DNA of 64,000 nucleotides, taken from contig OX638329.1 in the NCBI GenBank assembly GCA_951812755.1, forward strand, positions 2,279,339-2,343,338. Direction: 5' to 3'. The notes under the pieces were generated by a model, which did not search any database, had not been told where the DNA came from, and saw only the letters and a list, made by a program, of their open reading frames with translations. Position 1 is the stretch's first letter. Each line of letters opens with the position of its first letter. The stretch is from an uncultured Latescibacterota bacterium (GTDB lineage Bacteria > Latescibacterota > UBA2968). A program made the translations under genes and the position numbers. Of this stretch, positions 16,580 to 30,307 are shown piece by piece.

Positions 16580-18236
16580 GTTTCAATCCTTGTTCTGTTG
16601 GCAATAGTTCGGACACTTTTTGTAAGTTACGTATTTACAATAGTTTACAGAAGTGTCTATAAATTTCATAAATTATTGTAAATTAAGGATTTATGGATTA
16701 TAAAGGTCCAAATTTTGAAAAACTGTCCGAAGTGTTGGTTGGAATACCTCTGAGAATTACACGGATGTTGATTTTGTCGCGGCCGTAAACGGTTTCAATC
16801 CTTGTTCTGTTGGAATACCTCTGAGAATAGCCTTTTCCCGAGCAGGAGCAAGAAAGTCCGGGAGAGTTTCAATCCTTGTTCTGTTGGAATACCTCTGAGA
16901 ATATCACGGCTTCAGGCATTGCAAGACCGGCTCCTACGTTTCAATCCTTGTTCTGTTGGAATACCTCTGAGAATTACCGACTATAGCGCATCTAAGACGT
17001 ACTACTTCTAGTTTCAATCCTTGTTCTGTTGGAATACCTCTGAGAATACAGAAGCATCTTCGATGGTGTATCCCTTATATGGCAGTTTCAATCCTTGTTC
17101 TGTTGGAATACCTCTGAGAATGACCACATCTGCTCCACAGCATTCATTCGTCACCTCCGTTTCAATCCTTGTTCTGTTGGAATACCTCTGAGAATATCAT
17201 TTTTCGCCCCTTTCGTGTACTCGAGTATTCCGTTTCAATCCTTGTTCTGGTGGAATATCCTTCTGAATGTGGCTTGTGCTCAGGGTGTTAAACCGCGTCT
17301 CAGGTCGTTTCAATCCTTGTTCTGGTGGAATATCCTTCTGAATGTGGCTTACAAGCTGCACAGCCGCGTTATTTTTTTATGGGTTTCAATCCTTGTTCTG
17401 GTGGAATATCCTTCTGAATAAGACCAAACCGAATATATGATCGAACTCATCTTACCCACGTGTTTCAATCCTTGTTCTGGTGGAATATCCTTCTGAATGC
17501 GGACGCGCTGCCGCAGACTATTCGCCACACAAGGCGTTTCAATCCTTGTTCTGGTGGAATATCCTTCTGAATCTCACCGCCGCGATTTTAGAAGTTGTCT
17601 CCAAAGAAGGTTTCAATCCTTGTTCTGGTGGAATATCCTTCTGAATTATATCGGGGATGTTGAGCAATGGGGCCAACATTTGTTTCAATCCTTGTTCTGG
17701 TGGAATATCCTTCTGAATTAAAGTCTCCCGGCTGGTTCACACACAACCACAGGCGGTTTCAATCCTTGTTCTGGTGGAATATCCTTCTGAATTTAGATGC
17801 AGGGATATTTATTAACACGCCACGCCTACGGTTTCAATCCTTGTTCTGGTGGAATATCCTTCTGAATGTGGTCGCACGTATATTGGAAGTGCATACAGAC
17901 CCTGGTTTCAATCCTTGTTCTGGTGGAATATCCTTCTGAATCTTGTGATAGTCCGTAATTGCACCATCCCAATCAATGTTTCAATCCTTGTTCTGGTGGA
18001 ATATCCTTCTGAATGGAATCGCTGATTAAAGTGTACCCCGACCTTGACAGTTGTTTCAATCCTTGTTCTGGTGGAATATCCTTCTGAATGAGATGGGCTT
18101 GCGCTTTTTGAAGGGGGCAACACATGGGTTTCAATCCTTGTTCTGGTGGAATATCCTTCTGAATGCCAATATGAAGATGCACCGCTGTTGTTGTCGATTG
18201 TTTCAATCCTTGTTCTGGTGGAATATCCTTCTGAAT
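16580..18236 (-). CRISPR. Type I-B CRISPR array, 21 repeats in two versions
   Basis: Twenty intact 37-bp repeats (first at 16792-16828, last at 18200-18236) plus one old repeat (16580-16757) split by a MITE. All begin, as written on the plus strand, with GTTTCAATCCTTGTTCTG. Spacers are mostly 34-37 bp. Two repeat versions exist: the first seven (16580 to 17195) continue TTGGAATACCTCTGAGAAT; the remaining fourteen (17232 on) continue GTGGAATATCCTTCTGAAT. The reverse complement ends ATTGAAAC, the usual crRNA 5' handle, so transcription runs on the minus strand, from the leader beside cas4 toward lower coordinates. Version two is thus the newer, leader-proximal form. No spacer match inside this window was noticed by eye. 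Confidence 0.97.
16602..16737. mobile_element. MITE-like element inserted in a CRISPR repeat
   Basis: A 136-bp AT-rich element whose ends are CAATAGTTCGGACACTTTTT and, read inward from the right end, CAACACTTCGGACAGTTTTTC; 17 of the first 20 positions pair. GTTGG is present on both sides (16597-16601 and 16738-16742), and removing one copy plus the element restores a perfect 37-bp version-one repeat. The ends match those of the element at 3369-3563. No coding capacity. Confidence 0.85.
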
Positions 18237-19310: not shown

Positions 19311-20327
19311 TCATTCCTTTGTGTTTGAGTCTTGTTCGAGCAGATCATTGGCGATGCGGTGCAGGTCAAATTGGATGCTGTCTCGCCGCGTGATGTTGCG
19401 CCCTCGATAGCGGATGGCTGTGTCGAGATAATCGGTAAATGTTTCGATAAGTACGGCTTTGCCCTCTTTGTTCAGGGTAAGGCCGTTGCTCAATTTGTCG
19501 AATTGACCTTGTTTGATTTTTCGTGCGGAGAAGAGGCCGATAACGGTTTCGTCGGCCCAGATGCGATATTGTTCGATGAGGTCAAAAACAAGTGATGGCT
19601 TGTTGTAGTGGTCGGTGTGAATAAAACCGATATAGGGATCGAGTCCCGAGAGTAAACAGGCGCGTTCAACGATGCCGTAGAGCATGCCATACGAGTAATT
19701 GAGTAAACAGTTGAAAGGGTCTTGGGCCGGGTTGCGGCTGCGCCCTTCAAAGCGGTAGTGGACGGGTAAAAGCAGGGATACGGCCTCCCAATAGGTGCGC
19801 CCAGCTCGACCTTCCAGACCGAGCAAGCTCTGGCGCATGGTGTCGATGCTAATTGACTCCGTATCGTCACAGGCATTGCCCGCGAGGTCCTGCGTTTGCT
19901 CTTTGAGAGTTTTGAGACTGCCGATGGCCTCAGTAAGCGGTGCTGAAAGCCGTGTGCGTCTGTCGCGCATGCGCGTGAGCAATGCAATCTGATTGTCGAA
20001 TTTGCGCCCGATCCAGCCGAGGGCGAGTTGTACGCCGAGGTCGGTTTGTGCCACTGCGAGTTGTAAGCGGCGAATGGCTGTTGTAGAACCCGGTCGTCCG
20101 TGCCACACGCGACCAAAGGGATCGCCGTATTTGTCGAGAAAGAGGATGTCGATATTTTTCTCTACAGCCAGTTGCACCGCATCCGACGAAAACGCCGCAC
20201 CAGTTGAGATGAGAATAGAACGCACCTTGCGAGCGGAAATTTCAGTCGATTGATCCTTTACCTTGACCTGAAACAATTCCCCTCGCCGACTCAAATATGC
20301 GCCATAGGTGTTGAGTACAAGTTGCAA
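19311..20327 (-). CDS. cas1: Cas1 integrase
   Basis: A Cas1 of about 338 residues, the metal-dependent integrase that inserts new spacers at the leader end. Seen: NTYGAYLSRRGELF at the start, DILFLDKYGDPFGRVW, the catalytic region GRAGRTYWEAV (Glu), YSYGMLYGIVERA, and FIHTDHYNKPSLVFDLIEQYR with the active-site His and Asp. I favour the TTG at 20327, six bases after AGGAG; a GTG ten codons upstream also gives an open frame. The 5' end of this gene is duplicated at 21461-21516, beyond the inserted DUF3800 gene. Confidence 0.93.
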   Translation of the reverse strand: MQLVLNTYGAYLSRRGELFQVKVKDQSTEISARKVRSILISTGAAFSSDAVQLAVEKNIDILFLDKYGDPFGRVWHGRPGSTTAIRRLQLAVAQTDLGVQLALGWIGRKFDNQIALLTRMRDRRTRLSAPLTEAIGSLKTLKEQTQDLAGNACDDTESISIDTMRQSLLGLEGRAGRTYWEAVSLLLPVHYRFEGRSRNPAQDPFNCLLNYSYGMLYGIVERACLLSGLDPYIGFIHTDHYNKPSLVFDLIEQYRIWADETVIGLFSARKIKQGQFDKLSNGLTLNKEGKAVLIETFTDYLDTAIRYRGRNITRRDSIQFDLHRIANDLLEQDSNTKE

Positions 20328-20411
20328 AATGTTCTCCTGGAGATGATACTGAAGCACACCTGTTTATCACAAGCGTTCACAAAACAAATTTGATGGTATA
20401 GAACTTGAAAC

Positions 20412-20439
20412 TTGACATTTTTATGGTATTGGTTATAAT
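20412..20439 (+). promoter_or_regulatory. Near-consensus promoter for a plus-strand small RNA
   Basis: TTGACA, a 16-base gap, TATAAT: both hexamers are perfect, only the spacing is one short of ideal. It points away from cas1, toward the folded RNA at 20446-20566. It is the best promoter match I noticed in the window. Confidence 0.75.
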
Positions 20440-20445
20440 AGAATT

Positions 20446-20566
20446 GCCAGCGGACGAAATTCGGCTCCATAGCCGTGTGATTGCCGGGCTGCGGTTCGCG
20501 CAATCCTATATCCCTGGCTTTTTTTCATTTTCTCGCCACGCCAAAGCCGCTGTATTGAGCGGCTTT
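20446..20566 (+). ncRNA. Structured small RNA converging on the DUF3800 gene
   Basis: The predicted start, seven bases after TATAAT, begins GCCAG, which pairs with CTGGC at 20514-20518 to close the fold. Inside are a CGGCT/AGCCG hairpin (20462-20475) and a GATTGC/GCAATC stem (20479-20505) with a GGTTCG-containing tip. Seven T follow the closing stem (20519-20525), and a second, stronger terminator ends at 20567, so products of about 80 and 121 bases are possible. It runs antisense to the last 60 bases of the DUF3800 gene. Structured RNAs named DUF3800 motifs are known near genes of this family; whether this one fits a known model is untested. Confidence 0.65.
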
Positions 20567-21369
20567 TTTTGTGTGTAATACATACCATAACCTGCCTCAC
20601 GTCTGTCATCGATATCGTGTACGATCCGAAAAGCCCGCCACAGATACTTCACATACCGATCTTCGCCGCGCTCATAAAGCCTTTGTAAAGCCCAGGTGAA
20701 ATAATCCACAGCTTGTAAACCGCCTTGCTCTTGCGGGGTTGACACAGATACTTTTAAGGACGCATCACCTATCGCGTTCTGTTGTTTAGCAAAACGGTCC
20801 CGGGCAGTTTCGAGTGCCTGACGCAAGGCAGCAGTGCGGTTTGATCGACCTCGTTTTGAAAAGATAATATGATATCTGCTGTTCTGATGTAGTCTTTCTT
20901 TGAACAGACGCCCTATCAGATAATCGTAAAGTTCATTGGGGTGATAACGATAGGCAGGAGCGCTTTCATTGCGTTGGCGAACATAGTCCAGTACGCGCCA
21001 CTTGTCAGCAACCACAGCAAAGAAGCGCAATTCTTCAGTATCGCGTAAAATCCGGAAAACATCTCGTCGCACTTCGGGCAAATCGTCTTTGGCATGAAAG
21101 GCAAGAGCTGTTTTTCGAGCCTTTGTCTGCATGGACGGCACATCTTTGAAATATGAATCGTTCACCAGCCGCCCCCTCATGTTGTCTAAGGCATGGTGTA
21201 ATGTGACTGGATCAGGCACATCTAACAGGCCGAGTATAAAAAAGCGAGAACACCCTGATGAGCCGATCAGTACCTTTCCTTTGCTGGAGAACAACGTGCT
21301 ATCTCCGCCTTCATCTATAAAATAATAACGGATTGAGGTCTGTTTCTTTTGCAACGGTTTATTCTCCAT
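20506..21369 (-). CDS. DUF3800 protein inserted in the cas operon
   Basis: A 287-residue protein with the DUF3800 marks: YYFIDEGGDSTLF at residues 15-27 (the first acidic pair), a middle NELYDYLIGRLFKERLHQNSR helix, and LQAVDYFTWALQRLYERGEDRY near 215-237 with the conserved Asp. The family is thought to have an RNase H-like fold, and its function is unknown. It separates cas3 from cas1, on the same strand, with a remnant of a second cas1 5' end on its upstream side. It is therefore a later insertion, not a known Cas protein. A folded plus-strand RNA with its own promoter faces its 3' end. Confidence 0.82.
   Translation of the reverse strand: MENKPLQKKQTSIRYYFIDEGGDSTLFSSKGKVLIGSSGCSRFFILGLLDVPDPVTLHHALDNMRGRLVNDSYFKDVPSMQTKARKTALAFHAKDDLPEVRRDVFRILRDTEELRFFAVVADKWRVLDYVRQRNESAPAYRYHPNELYDYLIGRLFKERLHQNSRYHIIFSKRGRSNRTAALRQALETARDRFAKQQNAIGDASLKVSVSTPQEQGGLQAVDYFTWALQRLYERGEDRYVKYLWRAFRIVHDIDDRREAGYGMYYTQKKPLNTAALAWRENEKKPGI
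20539..20567 (+). terminator. Intrinsic terminator of the small RNA
   Basis: AAAGCCGCT, loop GTATTG, AGCGGCTTTTTTT: a seven base-pair GC-rich stem followed by seven T on the plus strand. It lies inside the 3' end of the DUF3800 coding region, so that protein sequence carries a terminator meant for the opposite strand. Confidence 0.85.
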
Positions 21370-21460
21370 AAAACGCTCTGTTCAGTGCTTTATCTTCCTC
21401 GCTGACGCCAAAGTTCTCGCAGTCAATTTTCTCTACACTTTGATCAGAAATAATACTCCC

Positions 21461-21516
21461 TGCCGACTTCTAATACGCGCCATAAGTGTTGAGCACGAGT
21501 GGCAAAATGTTCTCCC
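21461..21516 (-). pseudogene. cas1: Duplicate fragment of the cas1 5' end
   Basis: The 55 bases before cas3's end match the first codons and ribosome site of cas1 (compare 20286-20340) at roughly 80-85 percent by eye. Read on the minus strand it gives GGGAGAACATT, a TTG start and the peptide LPLVLNTYGAY, then a stop. The intact gene reads LQLVLNTYGAYL. The two copies flank the DUF3800 and RNA unit as direct repeats. The rest of the 21370-21527 gap holds nothing I can name. Confidence 0.75.
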
Positions 21517-21527
21517 ACGATATTTCG

Positions 21528-23963
21528 TTAAAAAATCGCTGTGGTTTGTTTTTCATCTGCTAATAGGTATGCAAAACCGGTATCTGGACAGTAGTCTTCT
21601 GCATTTATCAGTCTCCACAGTGCGCTATCTTCCTCATTTTCTATCTCGTCCATCGGCACCAGCGGCTCTCCAATATCAATTGCCATTTTCCTATTTACAG
21701 GAACTAAGTATTGTCGAAACAGGGCAGATAAACGTTTACGTTCAAGGAAATTTAAATTTTTACGAAATTTCCAGTCCAAGAATCTATCAAGTAATTGGTT
21801 ACCACCCTCGGGCGCAAAATGGGCTTGCAAGCGTTGCATTGCACTATTTAGTTCACACACTGGCTGGTTGACAAACACATTGTCTCTTGGAGGACCAGAG
21901 ACGAATGGTTGAATCCCCGCAAGTTCAGACCATTTTCCATGAGCTGCCTTTTCGACTTTGTCTTGCAATAGAGCTGTATAGGTATTTACATTCCAACAAG
22001 TTCGATAATACTGATCCAGTTCTGAGACGAGGTTTTCTTCTGGCAAAACATTGCTTGTATATTGCTCCAATAAACGATCTGTTTGCGTTCTTGAGTTCTC
22101 ATCCCGATAGATCCATAATCGACTGTGGTTTCCATCTTCACGCACAAATTCAAACACTACAACCTTGGCGCGTTCTCCTTCCCCATGTCGATTTGCGCGT
22201 CCGGCTGCCTGAGTTATAGATGGGAAAATTGGAAGTGCTCGTAATATTACTCGAAAACTCAAGTCTACGCCTGCTTCTAATATTTGGGTGCAGACAGCTA
22301 TTACACGTTTTTCTTTTTTTAGGCTTTTATTAATTTTTTGAATCACTTTAGCTTTGTGTGATGGCAACATCAATGAGGTTAAACAGAATATCTCTACATC
22401 TTTTAATTTTTTAGATTCTTTGATTCGTTTATAGACTCTTGCGGTGTCCTGTACCGTATTCAGGATAATCGCTACACTTTTTGCTTTTTTTATCGTTTTA
22501 ATGGTCATCTTGGCAACGGCAACTTCATTCCAAATATTCGGCTGCATGTGAATATCATATCGTCCGGCTATTTCAATTTTAGGTGCAAGGGAAATGATAG
22601 GATGTAAAATACCTTCTTCCACAGGTGGTAGTGTGGCTGTAGAAAATAATATCTGAAATGAACAATCTTCTGCCACTATGCTAAGAATACGAAGAAATAT
22701 ATTCCAGGCATTTAAATCGATAATTTGAGGTTCATCGATAATTACAAAGGCGTTTTTAAGTGCCTCAATCCTGAGACACTGATGTGCCCTACGGGGAAAA
22801 ATTGCTCGAAAGAACTGATTAAACGTTGTCGTCAAAATGGGTGTTTGCCAGGTCTCTGTAACCTCTATTTCATCGTCGTCCAATTCTGCGAGCGAAAGAT
22901 GATGGTGTTGTATAGCTTCTAATCCTGTTGTTTCCGAAATTTCTTCTGTATTCTGAGAGAGTATAGAAAGATAAGGTGCCACATATATAATCCGCTGATA
23001 TTGACCAGATGCACACGCGGTTAATGCAATTCTTAATGCCGATAACGTTTTTCCATAACCAGTAGGTAATTTTAAGGAATAAAAAAAATCCTGAGAATGT
23101 TGTAAATACTCTCTAAGCGCTTTTTCTTGAACAGCTTGGCGATGGCTAACCAGTAATGGATCGGCACCCTCTACTAAGGCTTTTTTGGCCTTTTTTTTAC
23201 AGGCTTCCGATAGTCTTTGGAGTGCATCTTTGGCATCCGAAACACTCAAATTGGCCTTATGCAGATCCCCCGCATGATATCGGTCTGCTGCAACAAGCTG
23301 TGCTGCAACTCGTGGAATACTCAAAGCGAAGCGTGTTTTGATCTTGGCGGAGTCATTGGCTTCTCGAAGCATACGGGTCAATTGTTTTCCCCGATCTCTT
23401 CGAACACGTTTTTCCCATTGGTTTGGAAATGTAGTCAACCACTTCTCAAACCCTTTCCGATTTAGCTGAATGTCCGAGAAATGTGAAATAATGAAATCAA
23501 AAATGCCATCCGTATCACAGGCATCTAAGTCTTCAGCAAAATGATTTCTCGCACCACTTTTATCCCAAGGGGTATCTCCTTCCAGATCATCCAATTGCCC
23601 GTGATGATCGTAGATCACTCGAGTCCAATCCAGTGATAGATCATAAAGCCTCAAGCGAGCTATTCTATCAATCTGCCAGATTTTGATTAGACTTTCGGCA
23701 CAATAAGCAAATAATGCAGAGCCTAATGGTGCGTGGGGAGGGCCTTTTTCAAGTTCCTCCCGTATATAATATTGCCAATCCGCATGTGCCTTAGCCACAT
23801 CGTGCAGAAGACCCGCTAAGAATGCCATGCGCTCCTCATAATTCCCCTTTTCAGAGCCACATGCATTGGCTACCGCTACAAGATGGTCTTGAAGAAGATT
23901 CTTCTGTCCATCTTTATCGTCTGGTCGAGCAATGCATCGGTCAAAAGGTATTACCATAGGCAT
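21528..23963 (-). CDS. cas3: Cas3 nuclease-helicase
   Basis: An 811-residue Cas3: an N-terminal HD nuclease (LLHDVAKAHADWQ near 51-63, later HAPLGSALFAY), then an SF2 helicase with Walker A LPTGYGKTLSALR near 300, motif II IDEPQIID in place of the more common DEAH/DECH, motif III SFQILFSTATLP, and motif VI QAAGRANRHGEG. It is recruited by the Cascade complex to unwind and degrade target DNA. Its start overlaps the cas5 end by 13 bp, so the two are coupled. Downstream it once met cas1 directly; the DUF3800 insertion now separates them. Confidence 0.93.
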   Translation of the reverse strand: MPMVIPFDRCIARPDDKDGQKNLLQDHLVAVANACGSEKGNYEERMAFLAGLLHDVAKAHADWQYYIREELEKGPPHAPLGSALFAYCAESLIKIWQIDRIARLRLYDLSLDWTRVIYDHHGQLDDLEGDTPWDKSGARNHFAEDLDACDTDGIFDFIISHFSDIQLNRKGFEKWLTTFPNQWEKRVRRDRGKQLTRMLREANDSAKIKTRFALSIPRVAAQLVAADRYHAGDLHKANLSVSDAKDALQRLSEACKKKAKKALVEGADPLLVSHRQAVQEKALREYLQHSQDFFYSLKLPTGYGKTLSALRIALTACASGQYQRIIYVAPYLSILSQNTEEISETTGLEAIQHHHLSLAELDDDEIEVTETWQTPILTTTFNQFFRAIFPRRAHQCLRIEALKNAFVIIDEPQIIDLNAWNIFLRILSIVAEDCSFQILFSTATLPPVEEGILHPIISLAPKIEIAGRYDIHMQPNIWNEVAVAKMTIKTIKKAKSVAIILNTVQDTARVYKRIKESKKLKDVEIFCLTSLMLPSHKAKVIQKINKSLKKEKRVIAVCTQILEAGVDLSFRVILRALPIFPSITQAAGRANRHGEGERAKVVVFEFVREDGNHSRLWIYRDENSRTQTDRLLEQYTSNVLPEENLVSELDQYYRTCWNVNTYTALLQDKVEKAAHGKWSELAGIQPFVSGPPRDNVFVNQPVCELNSAMQRLQAHFAPEGGNQLLDRFLDWKFRKNLNFLERKRLSALFRQYLVPVNRKMAIDIGEPLVPMDEIENEEDSALWRLINAEDYCPDTGFAYLLADEKQTTAIF

Positions 23964-28589: not shown

Positions 28590-30307
28590 CCTAACCCGAC
28601 TAATTCATGAACAGTAATGTTTGGTTGTGTATGGCAGTCGGCGTGGGTTCCAAGCATCAAAATTAGGGCGTTTGCAGTCTTGTCTGCCTGCATAGGCGTG
28701 TTCATAAGGTGCAAGCCGCCCAGCATCGTCACCTGCCCGTCCCTGACGGTGTCAAAAAGTACAGACTCGCCCTTGCCTGCTCTTTGTGTGGAGCGGTCGG
28801 TGTATTTGTAAAGTCAGCCAATGATGGTGCAGCCCCCTTCCCCTCCCCGGTTGACAAGTTATGGCACAGCTTTTGCCAGATTGCTCAGGATTTTATCATA
28901 CAAGTGTGGCAATGGAAATGACATAGGCAGATGGAAGGTGATCTTGGTTTTCAACTCACAGACGCGTCCGGCGACTTTAAGGAAGCGATTTTGGAGTGTA
29001 TCAAACTGTGCGTTTATCCACATTGTGCCTTGTAATCCGATGTGCGCTAAGGTGTGCAACAAGACATAGGCAGCCGAATGGAGGAAGAGGCGAAACTGAT
29101 TGGCTCCAAAAGCGTGACAGGATGTGCGGTCTGAGTGGAGAAAGGTCTTGTGATTTTTAATGAAGTTTTCCATCTGTCCGCGCGCACAATAGATGTTTTG
29201 GTAGATAAAGGAGGCCCTTGAACTTTCAAGGTTGGTCACGACAAAGCGTGTGTTTTGGCCTCGGGCGGTGATTTCAGCTTTGCAGATGATGCGTCTGGCA
29301 CAGGTCCAAGTCTGGGCTTGGTAATAAAATGAGGTAAAAAGTCGCACCGGTTGCCCGGTATCTGCATACAGGCTTTTGGCCTGATCTATAAGGGGCTTTG
29401 CCAAGGTTAAAAGTCGGGTATTGGCGGTCTGTCCGAGGATAAAATAGAGGTCCTTTGTCGCACAGAAGTCCTGGACTTCTGGACTTGAGAAGTGGGCATC
29501 GCCTCGCAAAAAGAGTGCCACATGAGGCCAAGCCTGACGAATATAAGCGACTAACCGCTTGAGAATCGTGACAATCTGTTTGCCATCAGGACGCACACTC
29601 GGACGCAAAATCGTCGTGATTAGCTTACCCGATTGCCCTTCATAAATATGCAAGGGCTGGTAGGCGTAAGCATTGAAATACCCATTGAATAAAGCCAACT
29701 GCTGCGTCCCATAAACCGTATCCTGTGTATCATCTATATCTAAGATGATCGCCCGGGGTGGCTTTTTATACGAGGCAATAAAAGCATCGACAAAGGCACG
29801 CGCAATGCGATACAAATCGCTTCTGCTCATCTGATTCTCAAACCGACTCATCGTGGGTTGACTACTCAGATCTTTCCCCTGCAAGGGCAAGCGACCACAC
29901 GCCGCCTTGAAGCCGGGATCGCTTTTTAAGGCATCGCAATCATTGGCATCTTCATACCCGCAGGCGATTTGAAACACCCGCTGCTTGACCAACTCTGACA
30001 CACTGTGAGCCACATAACTTGGATGCCGACGGTCTTTGACCGCCTCAATGATGCGTGATAAAATGCCGGTTTTGGCCTCCACTTCTCGAAGCAATAAGAC
30101 ACCGCTATCGCTGGTGAGAATACCCCCATCAAAGGCGAGGTCGAGACGTTTTCCGAAAATGCTTGCCAAAGGAACCTTGCAATGATTATCTTGTGTGCTC
30201 ACGGTAGTTTCTCCCAAGTTTATTGTTCAATGGTTATGCGTGTAACCTAATATAATACAATAACTTGAATAGGGAAACTACCTTTTTTATGAATTTTTCG
30301 GGCTAAG
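28590..30307 (-). mobile_element. IS1380-family insertion sequence
   Basis: Bounded by imperfect inverted repeats: CCTAACCCGACTAATTCATG at 28590 and, inward from 30307, CTTAGCCCGAAAAATTCATA (about 15 of 20 match). IS1380 elements often begin CCTA. It contains the transposase at 28859-30217. I see no target-site duplication. The 28590-28858 part is unusually long for a noncoding end; it carries a minus-strand open frame of about 78 codons that I cannot identify (28579-28815 or so; it contains VTMLGGLHLMNTPMQADKT) and that has no clear start. Confidence 0.7.
28859..30217 (-). CDS. IS1380-family transposase
   Basis: A 452-residue DDE transposase: the N-terminal FDGGILTSDSGVLLLREVEAK is typical of the IS1380 family, then QIACGYEDANDCDALKSDPGF, a first catalytic Asp in IILDIDDTQDTVYGTQQ, and ALFLRGDAHFSSPEV for the second. 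The C-terminal region RGQMENFIKNHK contains the Glu. The reading frame is full length and undamaged, so the element may be active. It sits directly upstream of the cas operon on the same strand. Confidence 0.93.
   Translation of the reverse strand: MGETTVSTQDNHCKVPLASIFGKRLDLAFDGGILTSDSGVLLLREVEAKTGILSRIIEAVKDRRHPSYVAHSVSELVKQRVFQIACGYEDANDCDALKSDPGFKAACGRLPLQGKDLSSQPTMSRFENQMSRSDLYRIARAFVDAFIASYKKPPRAIILDIDDTQDTVYGTQQLALFNGYFNAYAYQPLHIYEGQSGKLITTILRPSVRPDGKQIVTILKRLVAYIRQAWPHVALFLRGDAHFSSPEVQDFCATKDLYFILGQTANTRLLTLAKPLIDQAKSLYADTGQPVRLFTSFYYQAQTWTCARRIICKAEITARGQNTRFVVTNLESSRASFIYQNIYCARGQMENFIKNHKTFLHSDRTSCHAFGANQFRLFLHSAAYVLLHTLAHIGLQGTMWINAQFDTLQNRFLKVAGRVCELKTKITFHLPMSFPLPHLYDKILSNLAKAVP

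Follow-up and report, generated by a model that had tools for sequence, protein, structure and literature searches.

Our analyses support the existence of a two-component unit, formed by a DUF3800 gene and a structured RNA encoded convergently at its 3' end, in the type I-B cas operon of the 64,000-nucleotide stretch of DNA analysed here (hereafter the window), and reveal a markedly directional pattern of loss, in which the RNA is found without its gene and an intact gene was never found without its RNA among the loci inspected. On balance, and with moderate confidence, we read this unit as an RNA-antitoxin/nuclease-toxin module comparable to type III toxin-antitoxin (TA) systems and embedded in defence operons. 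To our knowledge, no function has so far been assigned to DUF3800 proteins and their RNAs. The present results add an RNA family that Rfam lacks and whose functional signature is unusually clear, and the direction of loss provides a testable claim of toxin and antidote for an RNA beside a nuclease. As a single module is linked to three kinds of defence operon, the findings are also relevant to the ways in which costly bacterial immune systems are safeguarded, to the presence of DUF3800 in CRISPR loci, and to the question whether the other Rfam DUF3800 motifs function alike.

A convergent structured RNA at the 3' end of the DUF3800 gene

The cas operon of the window is encoded on the minus strand in the order cas6b, TM1802-type cas8, cas7, cas5, cas3, DUF3800, cas1, cas2 and cas4, and its DUF3800 gene is the sole PF12686 gene of the 6.5-Mb, single-contig genome. 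A DDE_Tnp_1_4 (IS1380-type) transposase gene lies directly upstream of cas6 (window 28859-30217). The first-pass annotation of this DNA had described a DUF3800 gene between cas1 and cas3 that faces a plus-strand promoter, a folded RNA and a terminator within the gene, all of which were confirmed at the following sites:

19311..20357, minus strand: cas1, downstream flank of the cassette (Pfam Cas_Cas1, 5.6e-75)
20412..20439, plus strand: promoter of the RNA, TTGACA-16 nt-TATAAT (12/12 match)
20446..20518, plus strand: structured RNA, proposed antitoxin (R1 covariance model, 87.9 bits; covariation)
20519..20526, plus strand: U-run after P1, possible first RNA end (from sequence)
20543..20572, plus strand: second intrinsic terminator hairpin (20543-20566) with U-run, inside the DUF3800 coding region
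20506..21369, minus strand: DUF3800 gene, 287 aa (PF12686, E 9e-9), proposed toxin/effector
21437..21515, minus strand: relic of a second cas1 5' end in the cas3/DUF3800 interval (64/79 identical to 20260-20337)
21528..23963, minus strand: cas3, upstream flank of the cassette (Pfam match)

The RNA folds as a 73-nt three-way junction on the strand opposite to DUF3800, at the 3' end of the gene, and consists of the stems P1 (20446-20450 and 20452-20454 with 20511-20518), P2 (20462-20465/20472-20475) and P3 (20479-20483/20501-20505), the DUF3800 stop codon falling within its 3' strand (CTATATCCC). The GCCAG/CTGGC closure proposed earlier was retained, while the length first given as about 80-121 bases was refined to a 73-nt structure, for which the sequence suggests two possible transcript ends, one at the U-run that follows P1 (~75 nt) and another at the second hairpin (~121 nt). 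The folding z of positions 20446-20518, calculated on the single sequence, was -2.2 alone and -3.3 when the terminator hairpin was included. A fold predicted from one sequence is in itself weak support, and the reality of the RNA is settled instead by its occurrence in homologous loci and by strong covariation. A search using only the protein retrieved 55 DUF3800 loci from about a dozen phyla, 53 of which lie on contigs that reach past the gene and cover the RNA site; the RNA was found at the DUF3800 3' end, on the other strand, in all 53. The covariance model R1, built from the same homologous loci that these values describe, matched them at E 3e-9 to 1.5e-19. Covariation, which had been suggested as a check, was clear in these loci: across 52 distinct sequences, 17 of the 20 RNA pairs showed two-sided changes, and paired cells amounted to 91.1%, against 77.8% in shuffled and 32-46% in slid alignments, with a covariation score of 0.376 against 0.144 when shuffled, a value equalled in none of 500 shuffles. 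The sequence of P1 and P3 is nearly free to change as long as pairing is kept; P2 and the joins ACGAAAUU, UGUG and CUAUA hardly vary. Furthermore, an R1-like, diverged RNA occupies the same place beside 12/12 deeply diverged DUF3800 relatives (~200-315 bits). This second RNA form (L158-L169) has the core GAAAGUCGGCU...GCCGUGCG...CCUAGC.

The promoter at 20412-20439 is the sole promoter-like site with a 12/12 match within the 6 kb scanned, and P1 starts ~7 nt after its -10 box. A promoter matching at least 9/12 positions stands at the equivalent place in 36 of 52 homologous loci, against 7.9% of shuffles, and mostly 7-12 nt before P1. Transcription of the RNA would be driven by this conserved sigma-70 promoter-like site, whose position predicts a start at P1 and therefore leaves no room for a guide. 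Indeed, a guide-like variable segment was sought in the RNA homologues and none was found, the variable parts being paired stems. On both grounds an RNA-guided nuclease of the OMEGA or IS110 type was rejected, and the earlier proposal of an RNA-guided or RNA-regulated module is best accommodated by its second half.

No part of the window reached the gathering score of an Rfam 15 model. The DUF3800 motif models, which the first-pass annotation had named as a check, did not recognise the RNA: models DUF3800-I to -XI gave no match in the window and four loci, where E values up to 10 were allowed, nor at E<=0.5 in the 12 diverged loci. A separate search with RF02969 (DUF3800-I) had no match anywhere, control loci included, and is therefore uninformative. 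Low-scoring matches to csRNA, SNORA72 and miRNA models were dismissed as chance or simple-repeat hits. As a positive control, DUF3800-IX (RF02968) was detected in 25 of 298 Chloroflexi-class genomes, and in L133; in 17 of the 20 loci tested, a DUF3800 reading frame on the opposite strand ends close to this motif, and one further locus has a remnant. The Rfam motifs therefore resemble R1 as structured RNAs tied to a DUF3800 gene, DUF3800-IX being convergent as well, but none of their models matches R1, and in L133 the two RNAs stand as separate elements, in the order hsdM, DUF3800 (206 aa), DUF3800-IX RNA, orphan R1 RNA and hsdS (L133:4776-5578), as if one module had replaced another. R1 is a covarying RNA consistently found beside DUF3800 genes, which is what marks a DUF3800-type motif as a kind, and it constitutes a new family and a further motif of that kind. 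The DUF3800 RNA motifs were reportedly first described by Weinberg et al. in 2017. Up to five DUF3800-IX RNAs occur per genome (G170, G209, G236, G254, G260, G298), sometimes in tandem (e.g. G170:C190, G298:C168), and R1 is nearly single-copy.

Gene-RNA pairing and one-sided loss

The identities of RNA and protein are correlated (rho 0.71, reached in none of 500 permutations). Together with the complete co-occurrence in the homologous loci and the diverged relatives, and with the covariation, this co-divergence strongly supports the earlier suggestion that gene and RNA form one unit. A search with the RNA alone identified 38 sites in 36 of the 298 Chloroflexi-class genomes. Among the 37 sites inspected, 20 adjoin a DUF3800 gene that is complete, almost complete or disrupted only by a frameshift, and the other 17 have a DUF3800 remnant only, no DUF3800 at all or, in L133, an unrelated DUF3800 type. 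When the same 298 genomes were searched with the protein, the RNA accompanied 30/30 inspected full or nearly full-length genes. An intact DUF3800 gene without the RNA was found in none of about 76 cases inspected, a figure that combines these 30 genes with the 53 loci of the protein search, about 7 being shared.

Comparisons between related loci illustrate the direction of these losses. L124 matches L011-L013 at ~86% on both sides and retains only the last ~25 codons of DUF3800, with the RNA and promoter region kept; in L095, compared with L023, DUF3800 is missing precisely from the mod stop to the RNA, which is kept; similarly, L129 has lost the DUF3800 gene present in L024 and kept the RNA. 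Most remains keep the RNA end only and not both ends, although some are internal deletions (L107 among them); orphan RNAs were consequently rejected as non-autonomous elements. Orphan RNAs preserve their structure (95.8% of pairs kept, 94.3% in the intact set), and 16 of 18 preserve a promoter matching at least 9/12 positions. They could simply be recent losses, a point against the toxin-antitoxin reading. Genes of toxin-antitoxin families (PIN, SocA/Panacea, PemK and HEPN/MNT) occupy the emptied DUF3800 position in L128, L137, L096 and L123 and lie beside the RNA in L132, which is no more than suggestive, such pairs being common in these genomes anyway.

Defence-operon settings, the DUF3800 protein and the proposed mechanism

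Three layouts place the unit inside defence operons: mod-DUF3800-[RNA]-res in type III restriction-modification (RM) systems, hsdS-DUF3800-[RNA]-hsdR in type I RM systems, and cas3-DUF3800-[RNA]-cas1 in the window. RM-type genes account for 20 of 164 ORFs within 1.5 kb of the unit and for 1 of 165 beyond 3 kb (Fisher p 6e-6), and a type III methyltransferase is the upstream neighbour in 8 of 53 loci, and several of these genes overlap the start of DUF3800. No RM or CRISPR neighbour was recognised in more than half of the loci, and the defence-operon setting is therefore a preference and not a rule. The unit is present as one copy per genome as a rule, and phyla are intermixed in its tree, with Chloroflexota among Poribacteria and Verrucomicrobiota split, which fits transfer without proving it.

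The window protein matches PF12686 with 36.6 bits (curated cut-off 21). Its first motif is FIDEGGD, and the homologue alignment identifies E20, E146, D149 and D222 as invariant and D19 and D23 as near-invariant. The AF2 model (pLDDT 89.6) finds its best solved-structure matches by Foldseek in RNase HII (1eke, 1uax, 1io2; E 1e-4 to 2e-3, TM 0.38-0.54), so DUF3800 is modelled with an RNase HII-like fold; a metal-dependent nuclease would be consistent with the DE motif on the first strand and the conserved E146, D149 and D222. Searches with the protein sequence yielded no real match among solved structures and no meaningful match in NCBIfam. The protein matches the PADLOC model DUF3800_VII (E 2.6e-15), a name that we take to stand for retron type VII. 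A reverse transcriptase is absent among the top 25 neighbour families listed, and a single convincing YxDD-like ORF was found, in L027. An RNase H fold for DUF3800 has been reported by others too, as have DUF3800 accessory nucleases of V-A2 and VI-F CRISPR loci (PMC10910872, PMC12669027). These and DUF3800_VII share with the window protein the Pfam family, the RNase H fold and the defence context; however, the V-A2 representatives are TPR-DUF3800 proteins beside class 2 effectors, and a regular reverse transcriptase neighbour was not recognised for window-type DUF3800.

An RNA-neutralised nuclease is judged the most likely explanation because of the loss pattern, the nuclease fold, the separate strong promoter and the defence-operon homes of the unit. 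Under this scenario, DUF3800, with its RNase HII-like nuclease fold, would be the toxic effector, and the convergent RNA, transcribed from a strong promoter of its own, would be the antitoxin that binds the protein and keeps it inactive, while the overlap between RNA and gene 3' ends may add antisense control of the DUF3800 mRNA. Once the short-lived RNA is no longer made, because the locus is lost, the operon is silenced or a phage shuts off the host, the stable nuclease would be freed to attack nucleic acid. Inside mod-res, hsdS-hsdR or cas3-cas1 operons, the module could in this way make losing or shutting off the defence costly, like the CreTA guard, a role that would not be universal given the many loci lacking such neighbours. 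The search of plasmids returned one weak match only, and that of phages and viral contigs none; this near-absence, unlike the situation of many TA systems, counts against the toxin-antitoxin reading. Its broadest form, in which an RNase HII-fold nuclease and a single convergent three-way-junction RNA define a new TA class, the Rfam DUF3800 pairs are the same system, and the unit acts as a guard or last resort in RM and CRISPR operons, is proposed tentatively, and we would place it somewhat below even chances.

The proposed module differs from the RNA-based systems described so far that it most resembles. In type III TA systems (ToxIN, TenpIN, CptIN), a nuclease-like protein and a small structured RNA are likewise combined, with an intrinsic terminator in the layout, but there the antitoxin is a repeat array that precedes the toxin gene within a shared operon (PMC5086642), whereas the DUF3800 unit has a single RNA copy, downstream and convergent, and an RNase HII-like model in place of a ToxN/TenpN/CptN-type fold; a classical type III system was rejected for these reasons. 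AbiF-AbiFr likewise has one non-repeated structured ncRNA per nuclease, and there the RNA inhibits the nuclease (PMC12737573), an effect that for the DUF3800 RNA is here proposed; AbiF is a HEPN RNase, in contrast to the RNase H fold modelled for DUF3800. CreTA, an RNA-based addiction-type element (PMC12737573), is nested in a cas locus as the DUF3800-RNA unit is, yet its toxic RNA CreT is repressed by Cascade with the crRNA-like CreA, while the DUF3800 unit comprises a protein and a non-crRNA RNA and occurs in RM operons as well. A CreTA-type, crRNA-like repeat was rejected, the conserved sequence of the RNA being unlike the GTTTCAATCC-type CRISPR repeats of the window when compared by eye.

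Different scenarios might explain the same unit without a toxin. Rather than inhibiting the DUF3800 nuclease, the RNA might be required by it as cofactor, scaffold or specificity element, the two forming a fixed-sequence ribonucleoprotein that recognises phage or other foreign nucleic acid. Obligate pairing and co-divergence agree with this, and the very conserved junction sequences resemble a protein-binding core; nevertheless, a cofactor would be expected to disappear about as frequently as its protein, so that gene-only and RNA-only remains would be similarly frequent, whereas an antitoxin would not be lost while its toxin stays, and only RNA-only remains were found. As the RNA is also predicted to start at P1 and has no variable guide-like part, we regard such an enzyme as unlikely. 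Less probable still is a convergent antisense regulator, in which transcription of the RNA over the gene tail would damp DUF3800 and the next operon gene (res, hsdR or cas1), timing restriction or adaptation in the manner of type I antisense antitoxins. The RNA does always overlap or abut the DUF3800 3' end, in RM and cas loci it separates DUF3800 from the gene that follows in the operon, and its promoter-like site is strong; but antisense pairing would not require a three-way junction that covaries and has conserved joins beyond the overlap, and the RNA is kept without a downstream operon partner and after loss of the gene. Finally, an RNA-guided transposable or homing unit (IS110/OMEGA-like), with orphan RNAs as non-autonomous copies, is very improbable: the unit does appear in unrelated operons and phyla, a duplicated cas1 start flanks it in the window and some remains are internal deletions, as in L107, but it is almost always single-copy, most remains retain only the RNA end, no terminal repeats or shared ends were seen, the scars of L095 and L124 are gene deletions, and it is absent from phages and virtually absent from plasmids. 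Several copies, defined ends and empty sites, by which an insertion sequence would be recognised, were not found for the unit, and that assignment was rejected too.

The cassette in the cas operon of the window and its relatives

Returning to the favoured toxin-antitoxin unit, its position in the type I-B operon bears marks of rearrangement. The copy of the cas1 start between cas3 and DUF3800 is 79 bp long and 81% identical to its counterpart (21437-21515 against 20260-20337), and it is also present in L003 and L006. The CRISPR array at 16738-18236 has one repeat variant, ...CTGTTGGAATACCTCTGAGAAT, at 16738-17195 and another, ...CTGGTGGAATATCCTTCTGAAT, at 17222-18236, as would fit a fused array. 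The cas locus thus looks recombined, and the simplest reading would be that recombination within cas1 or close to it joined a DUF3800-RNA-cas1(-cas2-cas4) segment to a different cas3-cas1 locus. An empty site was sought within the genus, as the first-pass annotation had suggested by proposing a comparison with close genomes lacking the cassette, but this cas3 occurs there only in G005 and G006, each of which carries the unit, leaving the insertion undated. The proposed entry into a type I-B locus accordingly finds support in the cas1 relic, the two repeat variants and the presence of the unit in RM operons of types I and III, and no empty site was seen to complete it.

Orphan RNAs also occur among the relatives of the window's bacterium. 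In its genus, L074 (G002:C16:1-3080) carries an orphan R1 RNA with its promoter, DUF3800 having been deleted, next to a 29-bp I-E-like CRISPR array (repeat ATGTTCCCCACGCAGGTGGGGATGAACCG), a decayed cas1 and a TnpB-like gene. In its class, G031 has kept the RNA, and most of its DUF3800 gene has been replaced by a SocA/Panacea-type gene.
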